From assembly GCF_001540865.1 (NCBI RefSeq), contig NC_033637.1:3553349-3617348 (forward strand): DNA of 64,000 bases, given 5' to 3'. The translations under genes and the position numbers were made by a program. The stretch comes from Ananas comosus. Taxonomy: Eukaryota; Streptophyta; Magnoliopsida; Poales; Bromeliaceae. Below, piece by piece: positions 1-59,449 of this stretch (the first letter of the stretch is position 1; the number at the start of each line of letters is the position of its first letter). The notes beneath the pieces were generated by a model, which worked only from the letters and a program-made list of their open reading frames with translations, ran no database searches and was not told the origin of the DNA.

Positions 1-115
1 TAACCTCTTCTTGAGCTTTCCTCATAATGTGGGGGTGCCGATTGAGCAAGCTCAGTCATGACCCACTCCAGAGTTGTAGAGGTGGAATCAATGCCCGCAA
101 CAAGCATGTCCTATT
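1..115 (-). pseudogene. cytochrome P450 fragment (I-helix region), frameshifted
   Basis: Read on the minus strand, this edge encodes a P450 I-helix: AGIDSTSTTLEW followed by VMTEL, matching the oxygen-binding AGxD/E-T/S-T signature of CYP71-clan (A-type) plant enzymes. After the MTELA residues the frame must shift by one base to continue as NRHPHIMRKAQEEV, the normal next stretch of the family. This is therefore a broken copy, unless there is a base error. The window begins inside it, so the heme-binding end cannot be judged. Together with the N-terminal piece at 911-1078 it looks like the remains of one minus-strand gene. Confidence 0.7.
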
Positions 116-910
116 CGTCCAATGCAGTTATAGTTTTCAAATGATATTGTTAATTTGAACGCGGAGGTAATATATTTTTAAAATGGAAAAATTTTAAATA
201 CCACTTTTATAATTTCACACTTTCTCACTTTATTATCCTGTAGTTTAAAATGTATCAATTTAGTATTTTGTAGTTTCATTTTTATCTTTTTATTATCAAT
301 TTTACTAATTTTTTTCGTTAAATCAGTGACAAAGTTAAAACTAAAAGATACTAAAGTGAATATTCAATAAATATAGATAGAATATCTGAAGTTTTTTATA
401 TATATAATTTAATAAAATATTAATGGAGGAACTGACGAAAAGATAAAAATAAAATCACATGACACTAATTTAATACACTTTAAATCATAAAATACTAAAA
501 TAAAAAAATATAAAACTAAATGGGTGGTATCTAATTAAAGCTTATCCTTTTAAAATAAGTTACTTCTTTATACATAGTAATTTTAGATGATAAAGTATTC
601 TAATGCATCATATTTGATCTTAATTTTCAAGCTGTTTGATTTACAGTATGCTTTTTAAGATGTCAGAAAATGAGACGCCGGATTAGCTATGAAATCCCAC
701 GCTGTGCTGTCACACGAATCTGACGCGACGTCGACCAAAGTTAAAAATTTTAGTAAAATCTTATAATCTCTTCAAATGTTTGAATTCAAAAATCCACCTC
801 CTCTCTTGGTATTTTTGTGGTCGTAGTTAGTAGCCTACCCTAGCTTGTCTTGTGATAGATAACAAATTATTTTAAAAAAAATTAAAAAGATAAAATGTAT
901 TTTCAAATTT
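116..910. other. AT-rich non-coding interval between P450 fragments
   Basis: No exon of a P450 or other protein could be read here on either strand. The DNA is AT-rich with short homopolymer runs. It sits where the missing middle of the P450 would lie, so it may be an insertion or scrambled intron. Confidence 0.4.
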
Positions 911-1078
911 TTATTTTTTATCATCGAGCAGGTGGAGGTGGCCGATGACGGCCGGGAGGGACGGCGGAGACCGAGGGAGGCGGCAACGACTACTACGACT
1001 ATGATTGCTATAGGTTAAGATGCAGAGCAACGACAAGATCATGATGACAATGAGGAAGGAGAGGACGATGTACTCCAT
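911..1078 (-). pseudogene. cytochrome P450 N-terminal fragment (membrane anchor)
   Basis: The minus strand from an ATG at 1078 encodes MEYIVLSFLIVIMILSLL, a hydrophobic ER anchor, then a basic stretch and the proline-rich hinge PPSLPAVIGHLHLL typical of A-type plant P450s (CYP71 clan). The frame stops soon after LLDDKK, where an intact enzyme would continue for over 400 residues. The 116-910 interval, which should hold the rest of exon 1, shows no P450 coding text and is AT-rich, so the body appears deleted or replaced. The subfamily cannot be assigned from this piece. Confidence 0.65.
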
Positions 1079-1187
1079 TATCGTTCTCCTCACAGGCAAC
1101 TGCAGGGAAGAACTATTGTGATTGAGAAAAACATTTATAAAAAGATCAGCGTTTGCATGGGAAAACAATCACAAACTAACCGACTGT

Positions 1188-1339
1188 TTATAGATCAAGT
1201 GGCAAAAGGCTTAGTGATTGATATCTGAGATTCCAAGTTCGAATCCTAGTTAATTCATATTTTTAGTTAAATTTATTTTTAAATAAAATAAACGAAATGA
1301 ATAACATGCTACCTATCTCTCTACAATAAAAAAAAAAAA
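1188..1339 (+). mobile_element. tRNA-derived SINE, copy 1
   Basis: The unit starts near a degenerate Pol III A box (AGTGGCAAAAGGCTTAG). It has an exact B-box core GTTCGAATCC, a conserved 3' half (AAATAAAATAAACGAAATGA, then ATGCTACCTATCTCTCT) and ends in a poly(A) tail running into the single N at 1340. The same element occurs at about 10295-10463 and 33800-33966 (plus) and at 43965-44115 and 48705-48850 (minus). Head-to-tail reading here is normal, so the mirror-reversed block starts after it. Confidence 0.75.
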
Positions 1340-1340
1340 N

Positions 1341-1715
1341 AATTAACGGCTACAATCGACCAACGTTCAAATTGCCACATCTTTATAAGTTTAGTACATT
1401 TTAAAACTATCTTTTAAGAAATATGATATATTTTATTCTAGTTATATAAACTAGATTTAAAAATTACAGTATAGTAGTGTAAAACACTCTAAAAATAAAA
1501 GTCGGCAACTAAAACTCGGGGAAGCTAGTGATCCGTTTACTATAACTTTTTAGCGTTTTAAATAAAAGATCCAAGAAGTTTATGAGATCTAGTTGAGATT
1601 GCCTCGGCTAGCAGCTAAGCTTTCAGGCTTATAGCTTTTGTTGAACCTTCGTGCCTCCGGAGGCACGAAGGTATTCATATGATCGGCGTGAGATATATAC
1701 ATATATATGTGTATA
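1341..1715. mobile_element. arm of a foldback MITE, written backwards
   Basis: Reversed without complementing, this stretch reads AGTGCGGCTAG, then TATGGAAGCACGGAGGC, then GTTTTCGATATTC, through TATCATTTGCCTAGTGATCG to CTCAAAATCAACGGCTG. This matches, as the opposite arm, the MITE half at 7880-8105 and both arms of the copy at 55330-55885. As printed it matches nothing on either strand. If the block is flipped in place, this arm and the one at 7880-8105 become the two ends of one complete foldback element. Confidence 0.8.
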
Positions 1716-1751
1716 TTTTTAATAGTCATTTTAAAATTTATAGCTTGGACT

Positions 1752-2041
1752 TCCCCCTTTCTAGCTTCGTCCACAACGGACTCCTTTTCGTCGCCTCTAT
1801 AGGTCGCCGCCGTTAGGCTATGGACGTCTTCGTAATTTGTGCGTTATTTTCCCCTTAATTTCGTGAAGGATAAGGTTAAGGCTATAGTTTGTTTAGTTTT
1901 CGAGTAGAGTTAAAGTAGTTTTTTAACCAAGATGGTGGCTAGGCTCTACTTTAGTTGCGTAAGCTTAGCTTAGCTTAGCCTCTCGTTCGTCTTCCTCTAC
2001 CTTTGCCCTGCGAGTGGAGCTAAGCTTCTCAGCCAGCGGTA
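1752..2041. pseudogene. ACX4: 5' end of acyl-CoA oxidase 4 (ACX4), readable only backwards
   Basis: Reading from 2041 down to 2017 gives GCC-ATG context and M-A-T-D-S-S-N-R, ending in a GTGAGC donor. From 1822 the text resumes after a TTCTGCAG acceptor with GIGLPPLDISAAFPQATPAS followed by IFPPS. LPP-x-(D/E)-(I/M)-S-(A/V)AFPQATPAS-x-FPP is the N-terminal signature of plant short-chain acyl-CoA oxidase 4, a peroxisomal flavoenzyme of the last beta-oxidation rounds. Upstream (2045-2330 reversed) reads like a CT-rich 5' UTR. The FAD and substrate-binding exons were not found in this window; a MITE follows exon 2. It may be a truncated gene or a gene split by misassembly. Confidence 0.75.
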
Positions 2042-2159
2042 CCGTTCCCTAGCCTCTTTACCTAGCTAGCCCCTCTTTGTTCTCCTAGCGCCGAAGATCC
2101 TAATCCAAAAGCACTCTCCTCTTCCTATCACTCCTTCTATACCCCTTTTTCTTCCGAAA

Positions 2160-2213
2160 TTCCCGAGCTTTCCTCCTCCTCCTCCTCCTCCTCCTCCTGC
2201 TGCTGCTGCTGCT
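2160..2213. repeat. CTC/CTG trinucleotide tracts
   Basis: A run of CTC followed by CTG triplets. Inside the reversed block this becomes a pyrimidine-rich triplet run upstream of the ACX4 start, typical of a plant 5' UTR. The glutamate/glutamine-rich ORF it seems to create on the minus strand is an artefact. Confidence 0.6.
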
Positions 2214-2356
2214 CCTGCTTCGCCTCACCCGCTACTGCAGTGCCGTGCCTAATGCTAAGAAAACAGCACAAACTCTTCTTAGTTGGGAACACGCAACCTA
2301 ATCTCCCCCGGGTGACAACTATATACAGATAACACAACATATATATATATATATAT

Positions 2357-2590
2357 ATATCTCAACTAGGTCCTATGAAAATGTTTATAGTAAGGGTACA
2401 ACGATAGTGGAAAAATCGGTAACCTAGATGAAAAACTAATGTTTATCGAGAACCTAGTTTGTGATAAGGTGGATGGTGGTGGATGGGGGTAGTAGAATTA
2501 GAGTGTAGAGAGGTAGGTTTATGATTTTTGTGTGTTCATAGTGAACCCACTATGAACATTTTCATAAGATCGGTATGAGAGAGAGAGATA
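2357..2590. mobile_element. small foldback MITE inside the reversed block
   Basis: Reversed, the left end reads GGCTAGAATACTTTTACAAG and the right end contains TTGTAAAAGTATCC, a matching inverted pair; both sides are flanked by (TA)n/(GA)n. The terminal GCTAGAATAC is shared with the normally oriented element at 55945-56425, again only when this stretch is read backwards. Confidence 0.5.
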
Positions 2591-3303
2591 TATATATATA
2601 TATATAAATTTTAAATTTTAAATTAAAATTTAACTTTAAATTTAAATGTAGCTTATAGAGGAATAAAGCTACCTAACACCCGCCCTCCCTCGCCCGCGCT
2701 CGGCCGCGCCATGCCTAAAAAAAAAACGGGAAAAAGAACACCCTGGTTGTTAGAAAAAAGAAGAAAAAAAGGAAAAGATTGAAAAAAATAATTTTAATTT
2801 TAAATAATCAACTATAAAATGTTTACCATTAGAATATAATGATTGAAATGTCAAATCCACTACAACTACTTCTGACACTTCTGTTTATAACTTGGAGAGT
2901 ATTGTCGATAATAAAAAAAAAATTTCATATCAACTTACATATTTAATTACATGATGAATACAGAAAATAAATGATATATTAAATTTTATAAAATCTTAAA
3001 TATATTTAAAAAACGGCGCATCGCGCCCGGAAGTGATCATTTTTTCTTTGGTGTCTTTTATGTAATTTGCCACACTTTTTCCAATCCTTTTTTGTTTTCG
3101 TTTCTTTTTACTTGTTTATCTATTCTTATGTTAAGTTCCCATCCTTTACTTGTTTACCTAATATGTTAAGTCCCCTCCCTCTCTCTTTATTACGTCCCTT
3201 CTTTCCAGCGTCCCCTTTTTCTGTCAATGGATGAAGAAAGCAATAAAATAAACGGCGTCAATCCCCCTTATTCTATAAAAATTTGTACATTAATCAAAGG
3301 TTG
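2591..3303. other. unassigned DNA in reversed block
   Basis: No exon or repeat end was recognised when read in any of the four directions. AT-rich with a short GC-rich patch near 2680-2710. Confidence 0.3.
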
Positions 3304-4820
3304 TCGAGGCATCTGGGTTAGTTTCTTTCAATATATATTAATATCAAGTAGCTTTCACTACCTTTTACAACAGATTAGTTGACTATAATTAATTAAACGG
3401 GTATACTAAATTTAAAAATCAAAATAAAATAAAAATATAATATGTGACAATTCATATGCAAATACAGGGGAGTTAATCTCTGAGTTAACGTTTTAAACTT
3501 TCTTCATCTTGATTATAGTATACCTCTCACTTTTGTTTTCAAGTGTTTTGACAGTTATGTTAACTTTAAATCAAAAACATTTTAAGTGTCGAAAACACCG
3601 TACTTGAATGAAGATTAACGTAATTAATTGGGAAACATCTAATAGTTCGTTGATTAATTTCGTCTTATTTCATTCTTTTTTTAATTTTTTTGTTTCACCT
3701 CTAGCAGGATAATCACTAAAAAAACGGGTTTGTTTAATTAAGACTATGAATAAAAGTAGATGTAAACATACTTGGGCTCCTAAAAAGAGAAAGAAAAAAA
3801 GAAATAAAGATCAAAGCTTAACTTATCCCCTCTAGGGATCTAGTTCCTGGTTTTAGGTTTGGGAATTTGATACCCGTATTCTATTACTTGGTTGCTTAGT
3901 CCGTATAATAATTTGTTATGTTTGACGTGTTTAATTTTACTTAGTCTCCTTTAAAAAAATTTTTCTTTAGCTTCTTCTCCCGTTGGTTGGATTACTCCTA
4001 TTCTTCTCCTTTCTAACATATCCGTCGGTTGAATTAATAAAAATAAGAATCTTTCTTAATTTTCGTGTGAATTCATTTCTATAGTATTTGACAGTGGAAA
4101 TTTAAAGTTACTGGTTTTTTTAAATAAAAGTTCGAGTACTTTCCGTGTTTGACTAATCCTAAGAAGTCCACTCCCGCGGAAGCAAGGAGTAACAGTGCGG
4201 GGCCTAATGATGCAAGAAGCCCGAGTGGTTGTCTAGGCGGCATGTGTATTTTTAAAAAGCATATATGCTTCGCTATCGACATGGACGTTTGTCTATCCTC
4301 GATGTTATTTTCATGTCTCGACGATTTTGAATTTGTATATATTCCAGGGTGACATGTTTGTACGGGGTTTTATGATGGTAGAGAGTCTAGCTATTAGTTT
4401 GTGGGTGACATACATGTACCGTGTCGGTTTTGATAGAGACTATCCCGAGGAGATCATACCACTGGCCCATCTATCCCTAGATCGAGCACTGAGGGAATGG
4501 AGCTAGTCTTAGTCGTTATCGTCGTAGTCTGTTTCTTAGACGTTTTTCCACCTTTGTTTATCCACACTGTTAATGACGTTTTGTCTCATCAAGAGTCACC
4601 CACGGCAGTGGCTGGGGTTGCCGGACAGGTGATTCAGATGTCATGTTCATACTTTGACTATCCATCTCTTATCATTTAATTCGACCTTTTTAAGATGTCG
4701 ATATACAGTGATATGATGGCGATAGGTTGGTTACGAGAGACATCTGTATTTTTACGTAGTGAACGATGTTGAGTTGATGGAACTAGGTTAGAGTTTCTTG
4801 GCGGTCGACCGATCAGGTTG
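3304..4820. repeat. tandem duplication unit A (about 1.52 kb, in reversed block)
   Basis: This unit is followed directly by a near-identical copy at 4821-6346; offsets between matching points are 1516-1527 bp. Read backwards it contains GTGAGCCCGAAGAACG and CCGGGGCGTGACAA, the style of sequence found in plant LTR-retrotransposon ends, and several TTTGCAG/GTAAGGG splice-like signals. Small ORFs seen on the printed strands (about 4079-4352) are artefacts of the reversal. Confidence 0.75.
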
Positions 4821-6346
4821 TCGAAGCATCTGGGTTAGTTTCTTTCAATATATACTAATATCAAGTAGTTTTCACTACCTTTTACAACAGTCTAGTCAAC
4901 TGTAATTAATTAAACGGGTACGCTAAATTTAAAAATCAAAATAAAATAAAAATATAATATGTGTAATTCATATACAAATATAGGGGAGTTAATCTCTGAG
5001 TTAACGTTTTAAACTTTCTTAATCTTGATTATAGTATACCTGTCACTTTTGTTTTCAAGTGTTTTGACAGTTATGTTAACTTTAAATCAAAAACATTTTA
5101 AGTGTCGAAAACACCGTACTTGAATGAAGATTAACGTAATTAATTGGGAAACATCTAATAGTTCGTTGATTAATTTCGTCTTATTTCATTCTTTTTTTAA
5201 TTTTTTTGTTTCACCTCTAGCAGGATAATCACTAAAAAAACGGGTTTGTTTAATTAAGACTATGAATAAAAGTAGATGTAAACATACTTGGGCTCCTAAA
5301 AAGAGAAAGAAAAAAAGAAATAAAGATCAAAGCTTAACTTATCCCCTCTAGGGATCTAGTTCCTGGTTTTAGGTTTGGGAATTTGATACCCGTATTCTAT
5401 TACTTGGTTGCTTAGTCCGTATAATAATTTGTTATGTTTGATGTGTTTAATTTTACTTAGTCTCCTTTTAAAAAATTTTTCTTTAGCTTCTTCTCCCGTT
5501 GGTTGGATTACTCCTATTCTTCTCCTTTCTAACATATCCGTCGGTTGAATTAATAAAAATAAGATTCTTTCTTAATTTTCGTGTCAATTCATTTCTATAG
5601 TATTTGACAGCGGAAATTTAAAGTTACTGGTTTTCTGAAATAAAAGTTCGAGTACTCTCCGTGTTTGACTAATCCCAAGAAGTCCACTCCCGCGGAAGCA
5701 AGGAGTAACAGGACGGGGCCTAATGATGCAAAAGGCCTGAGTGGTTGTCTAGGCGGTATGTGTATCTTTAAAAAGCATATATGCTTCGCTATCGACATGG
5801 ACGTTTGTCTATCCTCGATGTTATTTTTATAGCTCGATGATTTTGATTTTGTATATATATATTTTATATTCCAGGGTGACATGTATGTACGAGGTTTTAT
5901 GATAGTAGAGAGTCTAGCTTTTGGTTTGTGGGTGACATACATGTACCGTGTTGGTTTTGATGGAGATTATCCCGAGGAGATCATACCACTGGCCCATCTA
6001 TCCCTATATCGAGCACTGAGAGAATGGAGCTAGTCTTAGTCGTTATCGTCATTGTCTGCTTTCGAGACGTTTTTCCACCGTTGTTTACCCACACTATTGA
6101 TGACGTTTTGTCTCATCAGGAGTCACCCACGGCAGTGGCTGGGGTTGCCGGACGGGTGATTCAGATGTCATATTCATACTTTGACTATCTATCTCTTATC
6201 ATTTAATTCGACCTTTTTAAGATGTCGATATACGGTGATATGATGTCGATAGGTTGGTTACGAGAGACATCTGTATTTTTACATAGTGAACGATGTTGAG
6301 TTGATGGAACTAGGTTAAAGTTCCCTGGCGGTTAACCGATCAGGTC
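4821..6346. repeat. tandem duplication unit B (in reversed block)
   Basis: Second copy of the unit at 3304-4820, differing by scattered substitutions and small indels (for example an extra TA repeat near 5855). The high identity suggests a recent duplication, two haplotypes joined in tandem, or one LTR pair with a lost interior. Confidence 0.75.
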
Positions 6347-7870
6347 GGACACGGGTTTGATGTGGCGTGTGGTGGGTGCCTCCACCAGCCAGGTTCTTTT
6401 GATAGGTTTGCCCTGATGACGTTACATTTACGTTCTTTTCGGAGTGAGGCCTCGCCGTGAGCACCCACGCTGGGTTGGCTCATACGTTTGCACAGAAATA
6501 GCTCGAGTTAGTCCGAAGGTGTCCGATATCAGTTGTGTTTATCCAGTTTGACCAGATTGTTGGTTCCGACTGCACGGAAGCCGTGTTAGACTACGTTCTA
6601 CATCCTTAGACCCAAGGCAGTCGGGGCTACCGTGGGCTATCATGTTTTGTCAGATTGAGAAGACATCTTTGCTCGAGCCGAGGAGTCGTGCTCGCATTAG
6701 AGTTGGATGTGATTAGATTCATAGGTGCTGTGAGATTGTTGCCACTATGTTTTTCTTTAGTCGAGGACTTCGATTTAGACCATTGAAAAACTTTTCACAG
6801 TCCATATCCAAATTATTCAAAAGAGGATTCAGTTTAAGGTCAAGTCGTCTATTATTAAATAGATCTTAGTAATTTAATACGAGGTTTAAGTCCAAAGTAT
6901 ATTTTTGTTCGTTTAGGTACTTAAGCTCGATGATTGTTCCCTGATATTATAGGTATCTTTGTACGACTGTGAAAGATTTTGAATCCTCCTTAAGGCTTCA
7001 CAAACCAGTTATAATTGGGTGGAGTTTACGAGTACGTTTTGGCCGATCTTCATCTAGCTTCTTCGGGACGCGGCCTTGTCGGAGTTGCTTTAGTTGGTTC
7101 GACATTCTCGTTAGGAGATCTCTCTTCTTTTCTTTACTCTAGCTTGGAGTTTATTGATCTCTCTCTCTTTCTCCTCGACGATGGGACAAAGAGGTTCGAG
7201 TTGTGTATTTATATCGACCCCAGCCAGCCCCTATTTGGGTTGTCGCTTTTACTGGTTTTCTGGAGAATGGTTGAGTTTAGACGGCGGACTCATGGCCATG
7301 AGTTAAACCCATGACCATGGGACGTGAGTCGGTCGTTAGGTTTGCGACACATGGTCATGATTAGGCTACGTCATAGACATGGATCAGGATCATGGCCATG
7401 AGGGGAGTCCATGGCTATGAGTTGTGAGTTTTGGATGTTAAATGTTTTAAGTCACAGTCTCGAGGTTAGAGCGTAACGCGGCTCAAGCAAAACGCAGGTA
7501 AAGCGCGGTTTGCTGAGTTTGAGCAGGGCTGTGAGATGTCCACACAGCTGTTCGGTATCTATGATGTCAGTGAGACTGGCGATTTGGGGTCCCTATGATG
7601 TGAGTAGTGAGAAGAGATAGTAAATTCAGAGAAAGAAAAAAGGACGTTTCTCTTACTATCCCCTAATCTTTTATATTACCTTTTAGGATCTCTCTTATCA
7701 TCTCTCGTTTCTCTTCGTTCTAAGCACCTACGATTGTCCCTAGGAGGTTATAACACTCTAGCCGCTCTAAACTACCCTCGCCGCGTCCTAGATGTTGCTT
7801 AAAGTACCCTAAACTTCCTGCCCGTCACCGCGCCTAGTACTACCTAGCTGCTTCTTCGGGTCTCCTATGG
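6347..7870. other. retroelement-like sequence in reversed block
   Basis: Reversed, this reads as typical plant repeat DNA with several GGTACCGGTAC-like motifs (7270-7420), then a CT-rich stretch resembling a leader (7120-7170). No intact polyprotein could be read. The 99-residue ORF printed at 7015-7314 is not credible because the text is backwards. Confidence 0.4.
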
Positions 7871-7879
7871 GTTTAAAAT

Positions 7880-8105
7880 ATTTTGTAAGATTTTTATTTT
7901 CAACCATTAATTTTGAGCCACTTCGATCACTAGGTAAATGATATCGAAAAATCACAAAATTTATTTTCTAGATACTTCAAATACTCTAGATCAATTCTAA
8001 CGGAACCGATCGTCGATTCGAAAGTCCGAACATCGAAAACAAAGTGGAAGCACGGAGCCCTCCGTGCTTCCATAAGCATCCTAGCCGCACTCCATATATA
8101 TATAT
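7880..8105 (+). mobile_element. right arm of foldback MITE (normal orientation)
   Basis: Begins TTTTGTAAGATTTTTATTTT and runs through ATCACTAGGTAAATGATATC to GGAAGCACGGAGCCC, TCCGTGCTTCC and GCCGCACTC, ending in (TA)n. It aligns with 55670-55885 in the same orientation. Its partner arm is the backwards text at 1341-1715. Confidence 0.75.
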
Positions 8106-8109
8106 ATAG

Positions 8110-9240
8110 AGAGAGAGAGAGCGTGGCGCTAGACTTATATGCTTTTAGAAGCACAATGACTACTTAGCCATCAAGTCATATTTGATATTGAAACTTTCAA
8201 ATCGGCGATCTATTTTGTTAAAATTGATTTATAATATTTACAGTATCAAATATTTTCGACTTGTCAAGCTTGTAATTATTGAGAATCAGGCAAGGAGTAA
8301 TTAATTAATCCAATTTATGGCCTCTATATATTCATTGTAATAATGAAAGATTATGAATTTACTACAAATCTTGTGTTATCACATTATTTGATCAAAACTA
8401 TTCCTATGATTCTTTATGAGGTTCTTCTTTTGCTACAAAGTATCAAAGTCTTTTTGTTTTTTGTTTTTTGTTTTTTGTTTTTTGTTTTTTGTTTTTTTTT
8501 TAAGAGATAGATAGCATACTACCCGCTTCGTTTATTTCATTTAGCTACAAATTTTTCTTTTATGTTTGTGAAGGATAAAAAAAAATAAAAAAATTAAAAG
8601 CGTTTCTATTTTTTTTTCTAGAGAAAATTATTTATATACTTCTTAAAAATTTCAAACATTCTTATTTACCTCCCTTACAAGGCTAATATAAAAAAATATG
8701 CTTAAATGTATATATTATTAGAATTAAATTCTATTGGTGAACTATTAGAAACAACCATTATTTATGCGAAATTACTTTTTTGCCTTTAAAATATATCCTC
8801 CTATAGCCACCAACTTTTTTATTTATACTTAAGTTAATTAGGGGTTAAAAAAAATTTTAACTTTTGGCACTTTAAAATATATCCTTGGACTTTTTTTTTA
8901 ACTCTCATAGAAATTTAACCGGGATTTAATTCACGATGAGTTAACAGGCACTAACGCAGGGTTATTTTTGAATAATTGGAGAAATATACGAAGAGTATAT
9001 TTGAAATAAAAAAAGAGTAAGAATATATAAGATATTTCATAAGTTTTGAGTGATATATAAATAATTATCCCCTTTCTTATATATTATTATAAAAAAGTGG
9101 GCCGAATGTGGGCCATATTGGGTCGGCCCAGCAAATCTCAAACAACGCCCGAGTCCAACCAAGACCAATGTTGACTCACACGTGCCTGGCACGTGCTTGC
9201 TCTGTCCTCCTCCGGCAACGTACAGAAGACTCCCGAGCGT
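8110..9240. other. intergenic AT-rich DNA with SINE scrap
   Basis: (GA)n near 8109-8123 and a (GTTTTTT)n run at about 8454-8495, followed by a minus-strand 3' piece of the SINE (8500-8550: AAGAGATAGATAGCATACTA, CCCGCTTCGTTTATTTCATT). Nothing else was recognised. Confidence 0.5.
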
Positions 9241-9244
9241 CTCC

Positions 9245-9259
9245 AGAGCCTTCTCGAAA
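9245..9259 (+). promoter_or_regulatory. heat-shock element upstream of sHSP gene
   Basis: Three contiguous 5-bp units aGAGc-cTTCt-cGAAa, one mismatch from the perfect alternating nGAAn/nTTCn/nGAAn array bound by heat-shock factor trimers. It lies about 20 bp before a TATA-rich stretch (9281-9303) and 135 bp before the start codon of a small heat-shock protein, the expected arrangement for heat induction. Confidence 0.7.
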
Positions 9260-9393
9260 CGCACCCTTTCCTCTTCACATATTAATATATATATATATAT
9301 ATACACAGCAGTCTCCCTACCACATCGTCAACAAATTGATCTCACGTATCATCGTTTATTTAGTCTTTGCTTCTGGAAACAACATCTCCATTT

Positions 9394-11454
9394 ATGGCTT
9401 TCGCTCTCTCCAACCTCCACGGCTTCTCTATCCCTCCTCTCTCGTCCCATAACAAGAAAACCAAGATTTCGCACATTGGAGTCCCATTCAATGGAGTTTT
9501 TCTCTCGCCGAGTAAGTGTAAGTTAGCCATTAAGGCCATGGCTTCGGAGGGAAAAGAGAGCTTGGACCACCTCCAGAGAGCCTCCAAAGCGAAGAATCTG
9601 CAACAACAGATTCCTAAGAGCAGGATTGTTCAATCTCCCCCGCTCGGTAAACCAATCTCTGTCCCTTTCCTTCCTTCTTATTTTGCCATTTCTTTCCCTT
9701 TTCTTTTCCTTGTTGGGGTTAGAGAAATATAGCTAAATGATTGCTTTACATGTTGTTAGAATGATAATAAATACTTTTCGTCTCCACTCAAGATATTTTA
9801 ATAGATTCAGGATATGAAATTCGAATTTAGAACTTTCTCTTTCGATATCATATTAAAATGTAAGCTAAATTATAGAAATTTTTTTAAATAAATATTCGTT
9901 TTCTTACCTTTTTTTTTTTTTTTCCTTTCATAATTTTTTAAAATTTATATTTTAATATTTTAGATGGTTAGATTTAGCCTTCTCTATTAGGTCATTAATA
10001 TTCTATTTATTTCTTATAATTTATATCGAAAATAATTTTTAAAAATAATAAAAAATATATATTTTGCCATAACATCGTACTCTTTTGAAAACATTTATAA
10101 AATTTAAAAAAAGACAAAATATAAATTTTTAAAAATTAAAAAAATAAAAATAGAAATTTTTTTTTTTGTAATTTAGCTTAAAATATATGTAATAATTATT
10201 ACTCTTTGATAGCTTAAGTTACTGAAATATATTCAACGGGAGATCTAGTGTTTGTTCGACTTCTAGTATCTTTTAACCTTTCTATTGTATTACCGACCGG
10301 CTCTAGAGCAAGTGACAAAAGATTTGATGGTTGATATTTAAGATCCAAGTTCGAATTCTAATTGATTCATATTTTTCAGCTAAGTTTATTTCTAAATGAA
10401 ATAAACGAAGCGGGTAACATGCTACCTATCTCTCTCAAAAAAAAAAAAAAAAAAAAAAAAAAAGACCTTTCTGTTGTATTGTTACTGAGCTTAACGAACC
10501 CCAAAAGTACAAATCTTTCCCTCTCATCACCGCAGATTTTAGCACTATCGTAATTCCTTTTTTTTTTGGGAAGCAAATTAGTCCATAGTTTATGATGATT
10601 TCTTCTTATTTGGAAAGATGTCGATAAGTGTATGCAAATCAGATGAGTTGAAATTTGAGTTATCAATACATAGGAAGATGATGATCCAAAAAGAGAAATG
10701 CGTTGTTCGCCTTTATAGGGGTCTGTTTATCTATTCCCAAGTTCCGATACCATCTTAAATTATATGTACGAGCTAGTTAAATCTTTTATTTATCAACGCG
10801 AACATATTAGCAGTTCATAAGAACAACATTCATGAGGCTCTATAGCAATACTACCACAAAATATCTCAACTTTGAATCCAAGTTCGCTTGAATTTACGGG
10901 ATGGCAAATCAGTTCAATTCTCCCTTGCAAGCGTTGCGTAACTAAAATCTAAAACTTTGTTGGTAAATTCCTCCATTTCAGGTTTGTGGGACCGATTCCC
11001 AACAGCGAGGACGGTGCAGCAGATGATGGATACAATGGAGAGGATAATGGAGGACCCCTTTGCGTACACCGCCGTGCCGGTCCCCTCGTCCGAAGAGGTT
11101 GGCAGCGGCGGTTACCGGAGGGGGAGGACGCCGTGGGAGATCAAAGAAGGTAAAGAGGAGTACAAAATGCGGTTCGACATGCCCGGCATGACGAAGAATG
11201 ATGTGCGGGTGTGGGTCGAGGAGAACATGCTCGTCATCAGGGCAGAGAAGCAAGTCGATAAGGAAGCGGCAGAGCAGGCTGAGGGGGAGGAGGAGTGGCC
11301 GGCCAAGAGCTTCGGAAAGTACGGCACCAGGATTGCGCTGCCGGAAAAAGTCGAGGTGGAGAAGATCGCGGCGGAGGTGAAGGATGGAGTGCTTTATATT
11401 ACGATTCCGAAGGCTTCGGCTTCGAGCAGGGTTGTAGACATCAGTGTGCAGTGA
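9394..11454 (+). CDS. chloroplast small heat-shock protein (HSP21-like)
   Basis: Two exons, 9394-9646 and 10982-11454 (GT-AG intron, phase 1), encode 241 residues. Residues 1-48 are Ser/basic-rich and lack acidic residues, as in a chloroplast transit peptide. The conserved plastid sHSP stretch follows exon 2's start: LGLWDRFP, then QQMMDTMERIMEDPF. The alpha-crystallin domain (about residues 135-235) has the IKEGKEEYKMRFDMPGM beta strands, a KSFGKYGTRIALPE core and KVEVEKIAAEVKDGVLYITI-P near the end. The family forms ATP-independent chaperone oligomers that protect photosystem II and plastid transcription during heat. An HSE and TATA box precede it. A SINE sits in the intron. Length is normal for HSP21; the bulk of the protein is intact. 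Confidence 0.93.
10295..10463 (+). mobile_element. tRNA-derived SINE, copy 2 (in sHSP intron)
   Basis: CTCTAGAGCAAGTGACAAAA head, AAGTTCGAATTCTA B box, AAATGAAATAAACGAAGCGG body and a poly(A) tail of about 25. It lies inside the single intron of the sHSP gene in the same orientation as the gene. Confidence 0.75.
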
Positions 11455-30420: not shown

Positions 30421-32034
30421 ATGAAGGGAGGGGGCCCATGTAGGAGGCTAGGAGAGGCCTTTCGCCGGGCGGAGACCGCGGTGAACGGTGCGGTCGCAGC
30501 ATGCCGTGTGGGGAGGTACTTCAAGCTGGACGCGCGGAAGAGCTCCTTCACGAAGGAGCTCCGCGCGGGCGCGGCCACGTTCCTCACGATGGCGTACATA
30601 ATCTCCGTCAACGCCGCGATCCTCACCGACTCCGGCGGGCCGTGCACGGCGCGGGACTGCGCCGCGAGAGGTCGCAACGCGGCCCTCGATGACCAGTGCA
30701 AGTTCGGCGACGACCCCGGGTACCTGAATTGCCTGTCGCGCACGAAGGCCGACCTCGTCGTCGCCACCGCGGTGTCGGCGGCGGTCGGCTCCCTCGCGAT
30801 GGGCGCCTTCGCCAACCTGCCGCTGGCGCTGGCCCCCGGCATGGGCGCCAACGCCTTCTTCGCCTACAACATGGTCGGGTTCCGTGGCTCCGGGCCCGTG
30901 CCGTACCCGACCGCGCTGGCGGCCGTAATGCTGGAAGGCTGCCTCTTCCTCGCGCTGTCGGCCCTCGGCCTCCGGTCGAAGCTGGCGCGCATGATCCCCC
31001 GATCGATCCGCCTCGCCTCCGCCGTCGGCATCGGCCTCTTCCTCGCCTTCACGGGCCTGCAGGCCCACCAAGGGGTCGGCCTCGTCGGGCCGAGCCCTTC
31101 CACCCTCGTCACCCTCGCCGCCTGCTCCCGCACCAACGCCACCACCGGCGCCTGCCTCGGCGGCACCATGCGCAGCCCCACTTTCTGGCTCGGCGCCGCC
31201 GGCTTCGCCGTCACCGCCACGTGCCTCGCACGCGACGTCAAGGGCAGCATGATCTACGGCATCGTCTTCGTCACGCTCGTCTCCTGGATCCGCAACACCA
31301 GCGTGACGGTCTTCCCCGACACCCCGCTCGGCGACTCGAGCTTCGAGTACTTCCGGAAGGTCGTCGACTTCCACACGATCAAGACCACCGCCGGCCGGAT
31401 CGGCTTCTCCGGCTTCGGCCGCACGGACGTGTGGCTGGCGGTGATCACTCTGCTGTACGTCGACGTGCTCGACACGACCGGGGCCATGTACTCAATGGCG
31501 GAGTACGCGGGGTTCGCGGACGGCGGCGGGGGATTCGAGGGCGAGTACCGCGCGTTCATCGTCGACGCGGGGTCGACGATCGTCGGCGCGGCCCTCGGGA
31601 CGACGACGGTGACGACGTACATCGAGTCGACGGCGGGGATTCGGGAGGGCGGGCGGACGGGGATCACGGCGATCGCGGTCGGGCTGTGCTTTCTGGCGTC
31701 GCTCTTTTTCGCGCCGCTGTTCATGAGCGTGCCGCCGTGGGCGGTGGGGCCGTCGCTGGTGCTCGTGGGCGCGATGATGATGAAGATGGCGAAGGAGATC
31801 GAGTGGGGGGACGCCAAGGAGGGGGTGCCGGCGTTCCTCACCATGCTGCTCATGCCGCTGACCTTCTCCATCGCCAACGGCATCATCGCCGGCGCCGCCG
31901 CCTACGTCCTGCTGCACCTATGGGATTACGCGGTGGGGCTGTGGAGGTGGGGGAGGAGTGTGTGGAGGTTGATGGAGGAGGCGCATAACCAGGTCTCCGC
32001 GGCCGCCGCCGATATCCCCGCCGCGCCCGTTTAA
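30421..32034 (+). CDS. AZG2: adenine/guanine permease AZG2 (intronless)
   Basis: One exon of 537 residues. Plant AZG proteins belong to the nucleobase-ascorbate/AzgA transporter fold and import purines and cytokinins at the plasma membrane and ER. Family text is continuous: [40 protein letters not shown] (conserved substrate-site helix), [52 protein letters not shown] and the hydrophobic C-terminal helices. The [12 protein letters not shown] loop, the [15 protein letters not shown] segment and the EEAHNQVS tail match AZG2 rather than AZG1, which has a longer first loop. The gene is strikingly GC-rich against AT-rich flanks. TATATTAAG at about 30282-30290 is a plausible TATA box. It is isolated, with gene-poor DNA on both sides. 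Confidence 0.93.
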
Positions 32035-33719
32035 TTGAAATTAAGACGAACCAGAATTTTCTGGTCCGGACGATCCCCGATACGGGGCTGTTTGTTTTAT
32101 CTCGGCACGAATCTTAAGGTGACATGAACGACGGATAAAATAGGCTCGTACGTATTGGGAATCATCCTCACTGAATTAATTGTTTTCTGTTTTTTGAGAT
32201 ATTCTTAGATATTCCGTGTTTACTGACGTACTTAGGTTTTGGTTAGGTTATAAAACAGGGTGCGTGCTAATAAGCAACGTTGCCATATGAAGGAAAAAAA
32301 TATTAATTTGGGAAGGTATGTGACAGTTATGAGTTAATGGTCGTCATTAATTCTATCATTGGTGGAGTATTAACTTTTATTTTTCTAATATTAGTTTTTA
32401 TTTATTTGATGATAAAAATTGATATTCTTAAAGCAAATTTTTTACTCTTTAGAAAAGCAAATATATATATATATAATTTTAATACTGTAAATCCAACATG
32501 GATCGATCCAAAAAAATAAACAAACAAAAAAAAAAAAGCAAAATCCACATCCAACTCTCACTATTCCGTGAAAAAGTGATATTTCTAAAGAGGAAGGCTC
32601 CGTTCCTGGAAGGTTTTGCATGCATTTGGTGCAGATAAAATACTACTGATTGTAGAGGTAGAATTAAATGTATTTTTCGTGCCATAATCATAGAAGAAAA
32701 TATATTTATACATACTTTCGCAATGTTAGTAAATTGTCCGGACGTTACATTTGGTAGTTGGAACATGTGTTACTGGTCATAACCTAGCGCGGTTGATTAA
32801 CAGCTTAATAATTGATATATATATAAAGAGAGAGAATTATGTTACTATATTATCAATAATATCAAACGAATCGAGTTTCAGCCGTTGGATGAAAGGATGT
32901 GCGGGTTAGGATGATAGTAATTCTCTAAGGTTTAGTAAGTAGTTGATTGAATAGTATAACTTAACGAGTGAAAATGATTAAGGGATAGATCTAACGGCAG
33001 AAAACTCGATAGTACCAAGAGCTTGATATTATCGATAGCATAGTAACCACACACTATGATCACCGTCAAAGACAGGATTCGAGGCCTTTGTCCCCATTGC
33101 TTGTTAGTTAAGTAAAGAGAGAGAATGCCCCCAATTTCTTTTCTCTTTTTCACCCTAACTATCCATAAAAATTGATGAATAGTTAGAAACTAAGAAGCAC
33201 ATAGGCTACTGTGCTCTTAATAGTACAGTAACCCTGCTATTTGTGTGTGTGTGTGTAAGATTTCAAGTTCAAACTCTTGTAGCTTTACATGTCTATCTGA
33301 GTTAATTTCTAAAACATAAATAAAATAAATAATTTGCTATGTTTTTCTCTCGAGAAAAAAAGACAGCAGGAATATCTCTTGATTTAGATATGATTGGGAC
33401 TCTCTCTACCTTAGGCAAAACTTGTATGCGATAAATATTAGTAATGGAAGCTATGTGTCCTCTAGCTAGCTAGTATGTTAATTAGCTGTATATCAAACCT
33501 TCAACATGTGTGTTGCCTTATAGGTACACAGGAAACTCAATGGGTCCATAATGCATTTAATTAGATGGGTATTGTTTTCGTTCACATCAAAGGAGATCCC
33601 CAATCGTGAGTTGCTATAAGTAGTATATATGTTTATGTTTATTTGTTCAATTCTTAGGCCGTATATATGTTTGTTTGTTCAATTCTTAGGCCAATGGAAC
33701 ACAAGACTCCAACCCAAGT
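32035..33719. other. intergenic DNA downstream of AZG2
   Basis: AT-rich, with (TA)n near 32463-32476 and 32814-32825. At 33240-33360 there is a diverged SINE-like piece (CAAGTTCAAACTCTTGTAG, then AAATAAAATAAATAATTTGC). No gene was seen. Confidence 0.4.
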
Positions 33720-55346: not shown

Positions 55347-55885
55347 CTACTATGCTACTGCGGAAAGCACGAAGCTTCGTACTTCCAGCTCGTTTTCGAT
55401 GTTGTGGCTTCGAATCGCTCGATCAGCTCCGTTAAATTTGATCTTAGAGTATTGGAGCTACCTAGAAATAAATTTTATTATTTTCGATATCATTTGCCTA
55501 GTGATCAAATGGGCTTAAAATCAACAAAATTTCAATGGCGTAGTGAGCCGTTTGAAGTTTAACGGTGTTAGAAGTATCCAAATCACGTGAAATTTTGATA
55601 GAAATTCTTTATATATATAAGACAAGATCAATTCTTTGATTTTAAATTTTAATATCATATTATTACATTTTGTAAGATCTTTATTTTCAGCCGTTGATTT
55701 TGAGGCCCCTTCTGTTCACTAGGCAAATGATATTGAAAAATAATAAATTTATTTTCTAGGTACTCCAAATACTCTAGATCAAGTTTAACGGAACGATCGA
55801 CGTTCGAAAGTCACAATATCGAAAACGAGCTGGAAGCACGGGAAGGCTCCGTGCTTCCGATAGCATAGAGCCTCACTCTATATAT
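55330..55885. mobile_element. foldback MITE, complete copy
   Basis: Two long inverted arms: left GGAAAGCACGAAGCTTCGTA, then GTTTTCGATGTTGTGG and TATCATTTGCCTAGTGATC; right CACTAGGCAAATGATATTG, then TATCGAAAACGAGC and GGAAGCACGGGAAGGC. It lies in TA repeats. The same family is at 7880-8105 and, backwards, at 1341-1715. No ORF of transposase type. Confidence 0.75.
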
Positions 55886-55886
55886 A

Positions 55887-55895
<9 letters not shown>

Positions 55896-55953
<58 letters not shown>
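55896..55953 (+). repeat. (GA)n microsatellite
   Basis: About 27 GA units between the two MITEs. Confidence 0.9.
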
Positions 55954-55954
<1 letters not shown>

Positions 55955-56425
55955 GAGCTAGAATACTATTGATAGCAAACGGGCTCCATTGCCACCCATT
56001 TGTTTTCGATGATGGAGCCTTCAAATCGACGATCGGAATCGTTGAACATGATCTATACTATTTAAAGTGTTTAAAAATCAAATTTCATACATTTTCGATA
56101 TTGCTCTCTTATCCATCGAGTGGACACAAAAATGAACGGCTGAAAATAAATATTTTTTAAAAAATAATGATAGGAGTCTTATAATTAAGATCAAGAGTAT
56201 AGATCTTATTTTAAATAGTTTAAAATTTTTTTTAAAATTATAAAATTTGAAACCCTTTGATCATTAGGCAAATAATGTCGAAAAGATTTGAAATTTGATT
56301 TCTAAACACTTCAAATGGTATAGATCATGTTCAACGGTGCCGATCGTTGATTTGGAGGCTCTACCATAAAAAATAAATGGATGGCAACGGAGTCCGTTTA
56401 CCATCGATAGTATTCTAGCCCAACT
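55945..56425. mobile_element. second foldback MITE
   Basis: Ends GAGTTGAGCTAGAATACTAT and ATAGTATTCTAGCCCAACTC are inverted. Further inside, GCAAACGGGCTCC pairs with GGAGTCCGTTTACC and TCAAATCGACGATCGG with CCGATCGTTGATTTGG. About 480 bp, non-coding. Confidence 0.75.
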
Positions 56426-57175
56426 CTCTATATATATATATTGAGCCTTCCACTAATTTTTTTTTTTATTTAAACGGTCATTTTATAAGTGGAGAGTAGG
56501 AGAGTGGAAGAGACTTTTCCAACTATATATTAATTTCTCTTTGTGCAATGATTAATGAATTATTTAATTAATAATTATTGTATTAGTTTTTTAGTTATTA
56601 TTATTATGTATATGTATATTAAATTTTGTTCAGAGCCTTTGGTAAGTTGGATTTTGTTGCGTTTATTTCCCGCACTACAAGTATCCACGTGAAATGCATG
56701 TGCTGATCAAAATGTGGCGAATATAAATTATTGGTGATGGCCATTGCATTAATTGAACAATATTATTTGCATAATTTCTTTGAAAATTGGATGATATACA
56801 TAATCTATAAATTTTATTTTAAAATTATTTAAGGAATTTTTTGATGTTAGTATAATTTTTTTTTTGATTTAACACGCTGTTACTAATAGATCTAGCTATA
56901 AAATTAACACTATGAATATGAATTTATTTATTAAATCTAGTCATTAGTTGATTGAATTCATTGAAATTCAATTAAAATTATAAAAAAAAACTCCTTGGTC
57001 TACGCAAGTTTAAGAATGAGGGTTTTTTTTTTCCTTTTTTTTTACAAAAAAAAAAAGAAATCCTGTCAAATCCTAGCCGTTGACTGGATTGAGGATCTGA
57101 CGTCAGCGCAAACCGAAACGGGCAGGCCCTTATCGGGTCAACGGATCCATCTCCACCGACCCACCCTCAACGAAG

Positions 57176-57605
57176 ACTAGGGGTGGAAACGAGCCGAGCT
57201 CGAGCGAGCTTATGTCAGTTCAAATTCGGCTTGAAATTAATTTCGAGCCTAAATCTAGGCTCAAGCTTGGCTTGAAATTAATTCGAGCCGAGCTCGAGCG
57301 AGCCTAATTTCTAGTCGAGCCGAGCTCGAGCTCTAAACGAGCCGATTGAAATTCTCGACATTATATAATCAATAGTTTAATTTTATAGAACATTACCTAC
57401 AATTTGATATAACACGTCCAATAGTTCAAAATACAAAATAATTATAAGAAATGTGAGCTAGGGTGACTTCTTGACTGGATGAGGGTCTGAGAGAGAGAGA
57501 GAGGAAAAAAAAGTAGGGATTTGAAAATTTGAATGTTATCATGTTTTAGGGTTATGTGCAACAATGAAAGTCTGAAAGAGAGAGTATGTTATGTAAATTT
57601 AGAGT
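57176..57605 (+). mobile_element. end of a hAT-like transposon (truncated at N)
   Basis: CTAGGGGTGGAAACGAGCC, then CGAGCTCGAGCGAGC, is the widespread TAGGGGTGxxAACGAGC terminal pattern of plant hAT elements with subterminal GAGCCGAGCTCG repeats. It interrupts the sequence exactly where copy B continues into the AAMP-like 5' UTR. The other end is not present; the contig stops at the N at 57606. Confidence 0.5.
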
Positions 57606-57606
57606 T

Positions 57607-59282
57607 NAAGAAGAAGAAGAAGAAGCGTGACACTGATTGGTTGTGCGAGGAGGCGCTTTATATATACTACCGCATAGTGGGACACTGTGACGGAAATGCC
57701 CCTGAAGTTGGCGATATCTACTAATATCTGAATTTGGTAGGAAAGGTAATTATGTTGATAGCTTAGGGGCAAGAGTGGAAAATGGAATGAAACAGGGGAT
57801 GCGCTTGTAGTCATGGACGTTACGCTATGAGGAAGAATCTGGCTAGAATCTCGACCAGATGCATCTCGTTGTTAGATGGATACACCCGTAAATGTCTACG
57901 GTGCGTAGGAAACTTTGAGGTTATTTTTTTTACCTGTTTTCTTATTTTGTCTTTAAGTTTTGGTTTGTACTCATTTCAAAAATAGAAAACTCCTCGATTA
58001 GACCTGCCAATCTGTATTCATATTCACGAGTACCTACAGGTTACCCTACGAAGGTTTGCAACACTTCTCACAGATCGGTGGGGATTTACGGATGTTACAA
58101 TAGCAGCAAGCAATCTCGCAGCTGTTGATGCAACCTACATATTAAGATACAAGCCCAAGATTAGATTATAATCATAGATTCACCTACTAAATTAGAATTT
58201 TGCATGTTTTTTGTCAAATTAATCTTTTGAATATATAGCATAGTATTAAACTCATTCTAAGCTTCTGCTATTTTGTGAGATCGTTGGTTCGAAATTTGAT
58301 AACAATCATCAAAATAAAAGAGAGTTAGAGCATTTACCAGTAATTACAAAATAACGAGATGTAGGAATAACTTTTTCGTGAGAATTACCGAGCTTCGATT
58401 CATTGATAGTCGCCAAAATAGGCTTTGTGGAAGAGAAAAGCCCTAGGATCAACAAAAGATGAATGGCTATAGGAAGTTTATTAGTAGAAGCAAACATTAT
58501 TGAACTTGTAATTGTAAAGCCATTACTATTGGTGGGTGCTTATGCATATATATTGAGCCTTCCACTATTTTTTTTTTTATTTAAACGGTCATTTTATAGG
58601 TGAAGAGTAGGAGAGTGGAAGAGACTTTTCCAACTATATATTAATTTCTCTTTGTGCTATAATTAATGAATTATTGTTATTAATAATTATCGTATTAGTT
58701 TTAATTATTATGTTTATTAAATTTTGTTCAGAGCCTTTGGTAAGTTGGATTTTGTTGCTTTTATATATCTCTCGCACTACAAGTCTCCACGTGCAATGCA
58801 TGTGCTGATCAAGATGTGGAGAATATAAATTATTGGTGATGGTCATTGCATTAATTGAACAACATTATTTGCATAATTTCTTTAAAAATTGAATGATATA
58901 CATAATCTATAAATTTTATTTTAGAATTATTTAAGGAGTTTTTCGATGTTAGTATATATATATATTTTTTGGCTTAACACGCTGTTACTAACGGATCTAG
59001 CTCTAAAATTAATAATATGAATATGAATTTATTTATTAAATCTAGTCATTAGTTGATTGAATTTACTGAAATTCAATCAAAATTATAAAAAAAACTCCTT
59101 GGTCTACGCAAGTTTAAGAATGAGGTTTTTTGTTTTCTTCTTTTTTTTTACAAAAAAAAAGAAGAAATCCTGTCAAACCCTAGCCGTTGACTAGATTGCG
59201 CATCTGACGTCAGCGCAAACCGAAACGGGCAGGCCCTTATCGGGTCAACGGATCCATCTCCACCGACCCGCCCTCAACGAAG
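57607..59282. repeat. haplotype-like duplicated segment, copy B
   Basis: Second copy of 54338-57175, beginning directly after the N and lacking the MITE insert. It leads straight into the 5' UTR of the AAMP-like gene. Differences are substitutions and short indels, as expected between alleles. It does not include cystinosin exon 1. Confidence 0.85.
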
Positions 59283-59382
59283 AAACGGAAAAATAAAAAA
59301 ATAAAAAAAAGCAAAGCAAAGCAAAGCAAAGCAAAAACCCTCCACAAAACCTCTTCGTTTCTCTCCGAGTTTTCTCTCTCCC

Positions 59383-59390
<8 letters not shown>

Positions 59391-59419
<29 letters not shown>
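59391..59419 (+). repeat. (CT)n in 5' UTR of AAMP-like gene
   Basis: About 14 CT units, 30 bp before the start codon; preceded by (GCAAA)n at 59311-59335. Pyrimidine tracts like this are common in plant leaders. Confidence 0.85.
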
Positions 59420-59422
<3 letters not shown>

Positions 59423-59449
59423 CCTCGATCCTCGATCTCCTTGAGAGAG

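Follow-up and report, generated by a model that had tools for sequence, protein, structure and literature searches.

A 6.5 kb stretch of pineapple C17 that reads, letter by letter backwards, as C14 DNA placed at a gap

The stretch analyzed here (the window) comprises 64,000 nucleotides of C17 of Ananas comosus, from a 382 Mb assembly for which we take Ming et al. 2015 to be the source paper. A single N at 1340, a gap placeholder, adjoins the left edge of a block at 1341-7879 that makes sense only from right to left; the features inside it are given without a strand. The first, at 1341-1716, is the arm and loop of an inverted-repeat (MITE-like) transposon written backwards, whose end at 1341 corresponds to C14 4859783; on C14, the second arm follows 5 bases further on. 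When the block is reversed, blastn within the window matches 1353-1716 to 55543-55901 at 84.5% and 1501-1708 to 7901-8108 at 90.9%, and the claim of an earlier note that the arm at 1715-1341 has normal copies in the window therefore stands. Next come two backwards exons of acyl-CoA oxidase 4 (ACX4): exon 1 at 2017-2041, with its ATG at 2041 (MATDSSNR), and exon 2 at 1748-1822 (GIGLPPLDISAAFPQATPASIFPPS), the limit at 1822 being set by script and that at 1748 counted by eye. In the reversed string, a GT donor follows exon 1 and a CAG acceptor precedes exon 2, as had been proposed for a start codon, splice sites and a known protein N-terminus in reversed 2041-1752, and the first 18 coding bases of ACX4 occur on neither printed strand within bases 1-9000. 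A second transposon is written backwards at 2357-2590. The arm proposed at 2590-2357 is indeed in order in the C14 copy, but its supposed window copies give short terminal matches only (best 34 bases, 91%), and the resemblance to window elements is thus confined to the termini. Finally, 3298-6345 holds, again backwards, two direct copies of a unit of about 1.5 kb (3298-4816 and 4817-6345) that are about 94% alike; this duplication is also found on C14.

The origin of the block is apparent from the same assembly. String-reversed without complementing, window positions 1341-7879 correspond to C14:4853249-4859783 on the plus strand, with 6507 of 6539 alignment columns identical; 25 of the 32 differing columns over the whole length lie at C14 4857566-4857599. 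The C14 source locus carries ACX4 exons 1-2, and the gene goes on there past the end of the block. The block starts at 1341, directly after the lone N, as the earlier note had seen, whereas the right edge that it placed at 7870 is moved to 7879 by the C14 alignment. Blind two-state segmentation of the window returned a backwards segment at 1246-7873 or 1236-7873. As printed, the block matches C14 in three short stretches only (33, 31, and 52 bases) and nowhere beyond 52 bases; these lie beside the two lone Ns of C14, in places where C14 is itself written backwards. The comparison of the two sequences confirms that this stretch of C17 reads as C14 DNA written letter by letter backwards and placed at a gap, and it shows that the block is out of place as well, being sequence of a C14 locus inserted on C17.

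Tests of polarity within the window lead to the same reading. The reversed block gave five blastn matches in the rest of the window and the printed block none, as the earlier note would have it, and eight other 6.56 kb window blocks, reversed as controls, gave none each. In the k-mer test, the reversed string was favored in all seven kilobases of the block, whereas outside it the printed string scored better in 56 of the 57 kilobases; the log-likelihood ratio (LLR) of the block was -38.5 per kb, and 50 overlapping placements in the remainder of the window gave +21.9 to +94.5. Dinucleotide ratios at 1341-7870 (CG 1.01 versus GC 0.83; GT 1.00 versus TG 0.86) are opposite in order to those at 12000-64000 (CG 0.82 versus GC 1.12; TG 1.06 versus GT 0.81). 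The asymmetries are therefore swapped in the block, but the swap of CG and GC is not uniform, as 1341-3000 alone has the normal order (CG 0.96, GC 1.22). The window also contains a second N, at 57607, beside which no reversed stretch was seen either by homology or by k-mer bins (at 55501-60000, cut into 250-base bins, the printed string is favored in 17 of the 18).

The other haplotype lacks the block. Genuine plus-strand sequence lies on both sides: positions 1-1336 of the left flank (1-1339) match haplotig C1221 5004-6336 at 93%, and the right flank (8244-10800) matches C1221 from 7179 on at 88-90%. In the haplotig, these flanks are only 842 bp apart, and the block occupies the space between them; compared with C1221:1-10000 at a cutoff of E 1e-5, the block itself gave no match. 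This bears directly on whether the block could be a real biological rearrangement, either an ordinary inversion or a printed strand that is genuine. An inversion yields a reverse complement, unlike the block; because the strands of DNA are antiparallel, they cannot give a bare reversal. The reverse complement of the block is not collinear with the rest of the window, with C1221:1-10000, or with C14 beyond 52 bases, and the printed block has no match on either strand in the rest of the window or in C1221:1-10000; it is the bare reversal, and neither the printed strand nor its reverse complement, that matches independent sequence. A genuine printed strand might be argued from the relatives that printed pieces have in the genome, namely 24 matches, including itself, for 6900-7870 and, for the backwards transposon at 1341-1716, 44 further long ones. 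However, k-mer polarity shows backwards segments in all 12 of the places examined, which are part of these two sets, though only weakly in C24 (-9.3); the loci examined for 6900-7870 (C2916, C458, C9, C1222, and, weakly, C24) are thus backwards themselves, and their matches were rejected as proof of a genuine printed strand. Both forms of a biological origin are ruled out by the C14 copy, the polarity and the haplotig, and such an origin is scarcely conceivable. The backwards block is not biology, and the earlier interpretation, a string reversal in assembly, is supported by the near-identical, correctly polarized C14 copy together with k-mer polarity, an exon structure present only in the reversed string, and an allelic haplotig without the block.

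Nor is the block alone. On C14, a lone N is followed on its right by 33 bases that, string-reversed, agree exactly with what the block reads, the correct sequence there, and the right-hand contig matches on from the very next base; a leftward extension of that contig stands reversed, at its proper locus, between N and contig, in the order seen in the window (N, then reversed fill, then contig). Contig-end errors had been considered for the differences that C14 shows next to this N, but these differences are an in-place string reversal. To the right of the other N, at C14 4851465, bases 2-70 hold part of a MITE written backwards (97.1%), and on C3, in a stretch picked arbitrarily (L055), the 310 bases directly to the left of an N are bases 122-431 to its right in reverse (310/310). 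By the k-mer model, 12 of 13 other places matching a backwards query contain backwards segments. The model called L050 (C16) normal, although homology shows a backwards stretch to the right of its N; this and the weak call on C24 indicate that the model misses short stretches. At loci of normal MITE copies, it found backwards segments in none of eight, one of which (L009) overlaps its training sequence. Printed matches totaling 67-135 bases lie inside backwards stretches at 5 of 9 loci.

Gaps accompany most of these places. An N run lies at or near the edge in 9 of the 13 (C2, C10, C18, C1, C22, C9, C1222, C24, and C16), and none was found at the edge, within the part examined, in the other four (C2864, C521, C458, and C2916). 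Backwards homology ends exactly at the N run on C2, C18, and C1222, the last being backwards on both sides of a 25-N gap, and normal homology restarts on the first base after the N run on C10. Among 20 N runs in stretches not picked for backwardness (that at 57607 included), three adjoin a backwards stretch, most of the runs lacking a reference copy that would reveal one, and eight sampled stretches of 8 kb gave one weak k-mer call and the 310-base case. These sequence comparisons show that the reversal error recurs at other gap edges of the assembly, among them the C14 edge where the 33 reversed bases stand where they belong.

The block and its recurrence on C14, on C3 and among the transposon matches point to a gap-filling step that pasted contig-end extensions reversed, a feature seen directly on C14, and it is almost certain that we are dealing with this kind of assembly artifact, the C17 block having been recruited from the ACX4 locus on C14. 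Such a step would extend contig ends into gaps, and each extension, laid down from the contig-nearest base outward, would be pasted without being turned round. On C17, a long and accurate sequence from the ACX4 locus, presumably a read or a read contig, would have been recruited, probably through the likeness of its MITE arm to the one at the contig end, and its outward part (C14 4853249-4859783) would have been pasted reversed beside the leftover N. The probable anchor of this false fill is genuine C17 sequence at 7880-8108, a minus-strand arm of a same-family MITE, which matches the first C14 arm at 91% (minus) and, over 7906-8085, the second C14 arm (4859788-4859967, plus) at 93.9%. The anchor is nevertheless not proven, because the native C17 contig continues for about 25 bases past the point where the plus-strand arm match starts, and the minus-strand match (229 bp at 91%) extends right up to the junction. 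On C18, the native flank showed no match to the source loci. One program may well lie behind all the backwards fills.

Two other technical origins must be weighed against reversed gap filling. A faulty scaffolding script that reverses without complementing (for example, with a complement table ignoring lower-case letters) might have mis-oriented whole contigs or BAC pieces; the block is a single piece as accurate as a contig, the C1222 gap is backwards on both sides, and four of the 13 other places have no N at the edge. However, N-abutting pieces of 33 and 310 bases are too short for contigs, the 33-base one stands at its correct locus, and the C17 flanks belong to a single allelic region, as its two sides, which means that a gap between them received an insert; we consider such a script unlikely. 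That the backwards strings arose only while the public record or the window was being prepared is highly improbable: although the analysis rests on one copy of the genome, backwards pieces stand directly against N runs. In addition, where the finished C14 has an N, the C17 block continues across it with correct letters that C14 lacks, and so the block was not copied from that finished sequence.

With such fills, some sequence of the pineapple reference is unreal DNA. There is about an even chance that the fault is systematic, with reversed contig-end extensions of tens of bases to several kilobases throughout this widely used reference, perhaps hundreds or more, and in other genomes made with the same tool and version. 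Long backwards fills seem to be unique DNA because neither strand aligns to the source; they would mimic lineage-specific sequence, and could receive spurious gene models or duplicate real loci, here ACX4 exons 1-2. Users may possibly be misled about gene content, orphan genes, repeats and variant calling near gaps. Such fills would be found by a polarity scan (k-mer versus reversed k-mer) combined with a search for mirror matches next to each N, and these simple tests could also be applied to other genomes with filled gaps.

The block can be compared with known assembly errors from the literature considered (PMC3504050, PMC6733440, PMC6022998, PMC8774480). Among the matches listed, the titles and abstract openings of open-licence PMC papers do not describe fills that are reversed but not complemented, for pineapple or otherwise. 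The pineapple F153 assembly combined Illumina, Moleculo, PacBio and BAC data (PMC6022998). Chimeric regions have been reported for F153, and the passages considered make no mention of string-reversed sequence. PBJelly takes reads of any technology and extends contig ends on alignments of about 200 bp (PMC3504050), and gaps are inflated to exactly 25 N (PMC6733440), behavior that resembles the 25-N gaps present in this assembly. False or overfilled gaps of PBJelly and similar tools share with the block the extension of a contig end into a gap and the leftover N run, but ordinary ones keep the correct polarity, whereas the block is reversed without complementing, which none of the passages considered describes. 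An assembly inversion caused by a mis-oriented contig is similar in that a contig-sized piece stands the wrong way between two edges; however, such a contig, as a reverse complement, can still be matched in databases, whereas the block matches its source only when string-reversed.

The letters of window positions 1341-7879 (the block) are printed backwards, that is, reversed as a string without being complemented, and the block is a false insertion from another contig, C14, with no biology behind it. When a five-mer log-likelihood (printed minus reversed) was computed with the window outside the block as training sequence, its sign was negative throughout the seven one-kilobase bins between 1001 and 8000, of which the first and last also take in part of the flanks. 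Outside them, 56 of 57 window bins were positive, the exception being 32001-33000 at -2.9. As a single 6539-base unit at 1341, the block scored -38.5 per kb versus +21.9 to +94.5 at 50 overlapping placements elsewhere in the window. Reversed, it gave five blastn matches, each with a transposon arm of the window outside the block; the printed block gave zero matches there, as did eight other window blocks of about the same size that were reversed as a control. Both k-mer polarity and blastn of the reversed string therefore uphold the observation in the earlier note that a block here is reversed. The swap of dinucleotide asymmetries predicted there is seen over the whole block, but fails for CG/GC within 1341-3000, and the second transposon arm proposed at 2590-2357 finds weak support within the window.

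The source lies on C14. Reversed, 1341-2300 gives a 960-base match to C14:4858824-4859783 at 100% by the tool's rounding (three bases differ base by base), and for 1341-7879 reversed against C14:4853249-4859783, 6507 of 6539 alignment columns are identical; 25 of the 32 differing columns fall at C14 4857566-4857599, three at the window-N end, and four are scattered. Within the block lie the first two exons of the gene for peroxisomal acyl-CoA oxidase 4 (ACX4); spliced to reading frames farther downstream on C14, they encode a peptide that matches ACX4 of Arabidopsis (2ix5, E 2.6e-38). The later ACX4 exons on C14 sit past the block's end; on C17, the contig of which the window is 3553349-3617348, what lies to the left of the block is an N and then flank common to the haplotig C1221. 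This haplotig is allelic to both window flanks at 88-93% identity, window 1-1336 corresponding to C1221 5004-6336 and window from 8244 to C1221 from 7179, with 842 bp between in C1221, and a search of C1221 bases 1-10000 at E 1e-5 found no match to the block in printed or in reversed form. At the left end of the window, the minus strand of 1-120 resembles, by eye, the conserved cytochrome P450 helix.

C14 itself is reversed in place beside a lone N at 4857566. The reversed block and C14 are in accord to the left of this N, and again from 34 bases to its right. The intervening 33 bases (C14:4857567-4857599) are what the block reads at that locus with the letters in exactly reversed order, and they occur in that reading only when reversed, which indicates that the right-hand contig had been extended leftward with the correct bases, but that these were pasted in unturned and an N was left. 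The window and this site share the same layout of N, reversed fill, and contig. The string-reversal assembly error suggested in the earlier note is thus supported by the C14 copy, the haplotig, and the in-place C14 reversal, and can be extended: the gap-filling fault recurs, and the block is one case of it.

C14 has another lone N at 4851465, and a backwards piece of a MITE, an inverted-repeat transposon, occupies bases 2-70 rightward of it (97.1% over 69). Eight chromosomes were each sampled with one stretch starting at 5,000,001; in the stretch from C3 (L055, C3:5000001-5008000), the 310 bases immediately leftward of an N (3571-3880) and bases 122-431 rightward of it (4003-4312) are exact string reversals of each other, 310/310. 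Where sequence had been chosen on grounds other than being backwards, 20 N runs were examined, window 57607 among them, and these three have a backwards stretch as neighbour; at the remaining 17 no backwards neighbour was seen, and most of these are without a reference copy able to reveal one. Position 57607 is the window's second lone N, and no backwards sequence was seen alongside it.

Longer cases occur across the assembly. Besides itself, printed 1341-2300 has at least 44 long matches, spread over many chromosomes and contigs, that cover its transposon part at 79-92% identity over ~290-380 bases; initial candidates numbered 295 with the string backwards and 4345 with it correct, and 40 from each set were scored. 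A second backwards transposon, from C2, has at least 40 other long matches, with 40 of 265 candidates scored; one of these, on C16 (L050), was fetched. Among 13 other loci selected by matching a backwards query, a k-mer model whose training sequence came solely from C17, C14, and C1221 found backwards segments in 12, weakly so in C24 (-9.3), and found none in eight normal transposon loci or in six others (L003-L008). This model scores the C16 locus as normal over its whole length, yet by homology ~540 bases to the right of its N are backwards. In nine of the 13 (C2, C10, C18, C1, C22, C9, C1222, C24, C16), the backwards stretch has an N run at an edge or close to it; in C2864, C521, C458, and C2916 none was seen there.

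Homology without the k-mer model gave much the same partition at nine loci: in C2, C18, and C1222 the reversed-string match extends to the base adjoining the N run, and in C10 the printed match restarts at the first base past it. Printed matches, 67-135 bases in all, do occur inside backwards stretches at five of the nine. Once reversed, the C18 block shares 726/726 bases with C15 and has 99.3% identity with part of C1, and a FAR1 DNA-binding domain appears only in the block's bare complement (Pfam E 7.9e-06; 27 bits, below the 28.1 cut-off). The C15 stretch (L053, C15:4267076-4270262) holds three lone Ns within 1 kb, with the pieces around them ordered differently from the contiguous C18 backwards block, and may be wrongly joined too. 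On C1222 (L032, 1934-8726), a 25-N gap is flanked by backwards sequence on both sides.

In the eight arbitrary stretches, 571 of 63,895 bases are backwards by the k-mer model, in a single weak segment without N. Mirror matching brought out the 310-base case in L055, which the model had passed over, so that one of the six N runs in these stretches has backwards sequence against it; because short fills escape the model, there could be many cases even with a small share of bases affected. The assembly comprises 381,958,007 bases in 3128 contigs, those numbered up to C25 being megabase-sized where seen and C36 measuring 49.7 kb. Two papers give a pineapple chromosome number of 25 (PMC8774480) and an F153 assembly of 382 Mb built from Illumina, Moleculo, PacBio, and BAC data (PMC6022998).

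As for mechanism, a C14 MITE has its second arm at 4859788-4859967, starting five bases past the block's N-side end (C14 4859783), and this arm matches the C17 flank at 7906-8085 with 93.9% identity in plus orientation. C14 sequence could have been anchored at the C17 flank via this arm, and the block would then be the outward overhang of the anchored sequence, written anchor-outward, as at C14 4857567-4857599; where the N is on the right, the contig may later have been turned over. Against this anchor, the native C17 contig runs ~25 bases beyond the plus-strand arm match, a 229-bp match on the minus strand extends to the C17 junction, and no such anchor was found in the C18 case when the native flank was compared with the source loci. 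That contigs were instead mis-oriented by a faulty script is quite improbable. For a gap-filling fault, PBJelly offers a comparison: it is described in PMC3504050 as extending contig ends with reads of any technology, and in PMC6733440 as inflating short gaps to 25 N. Gaps of 25 N are present in this assembly too.
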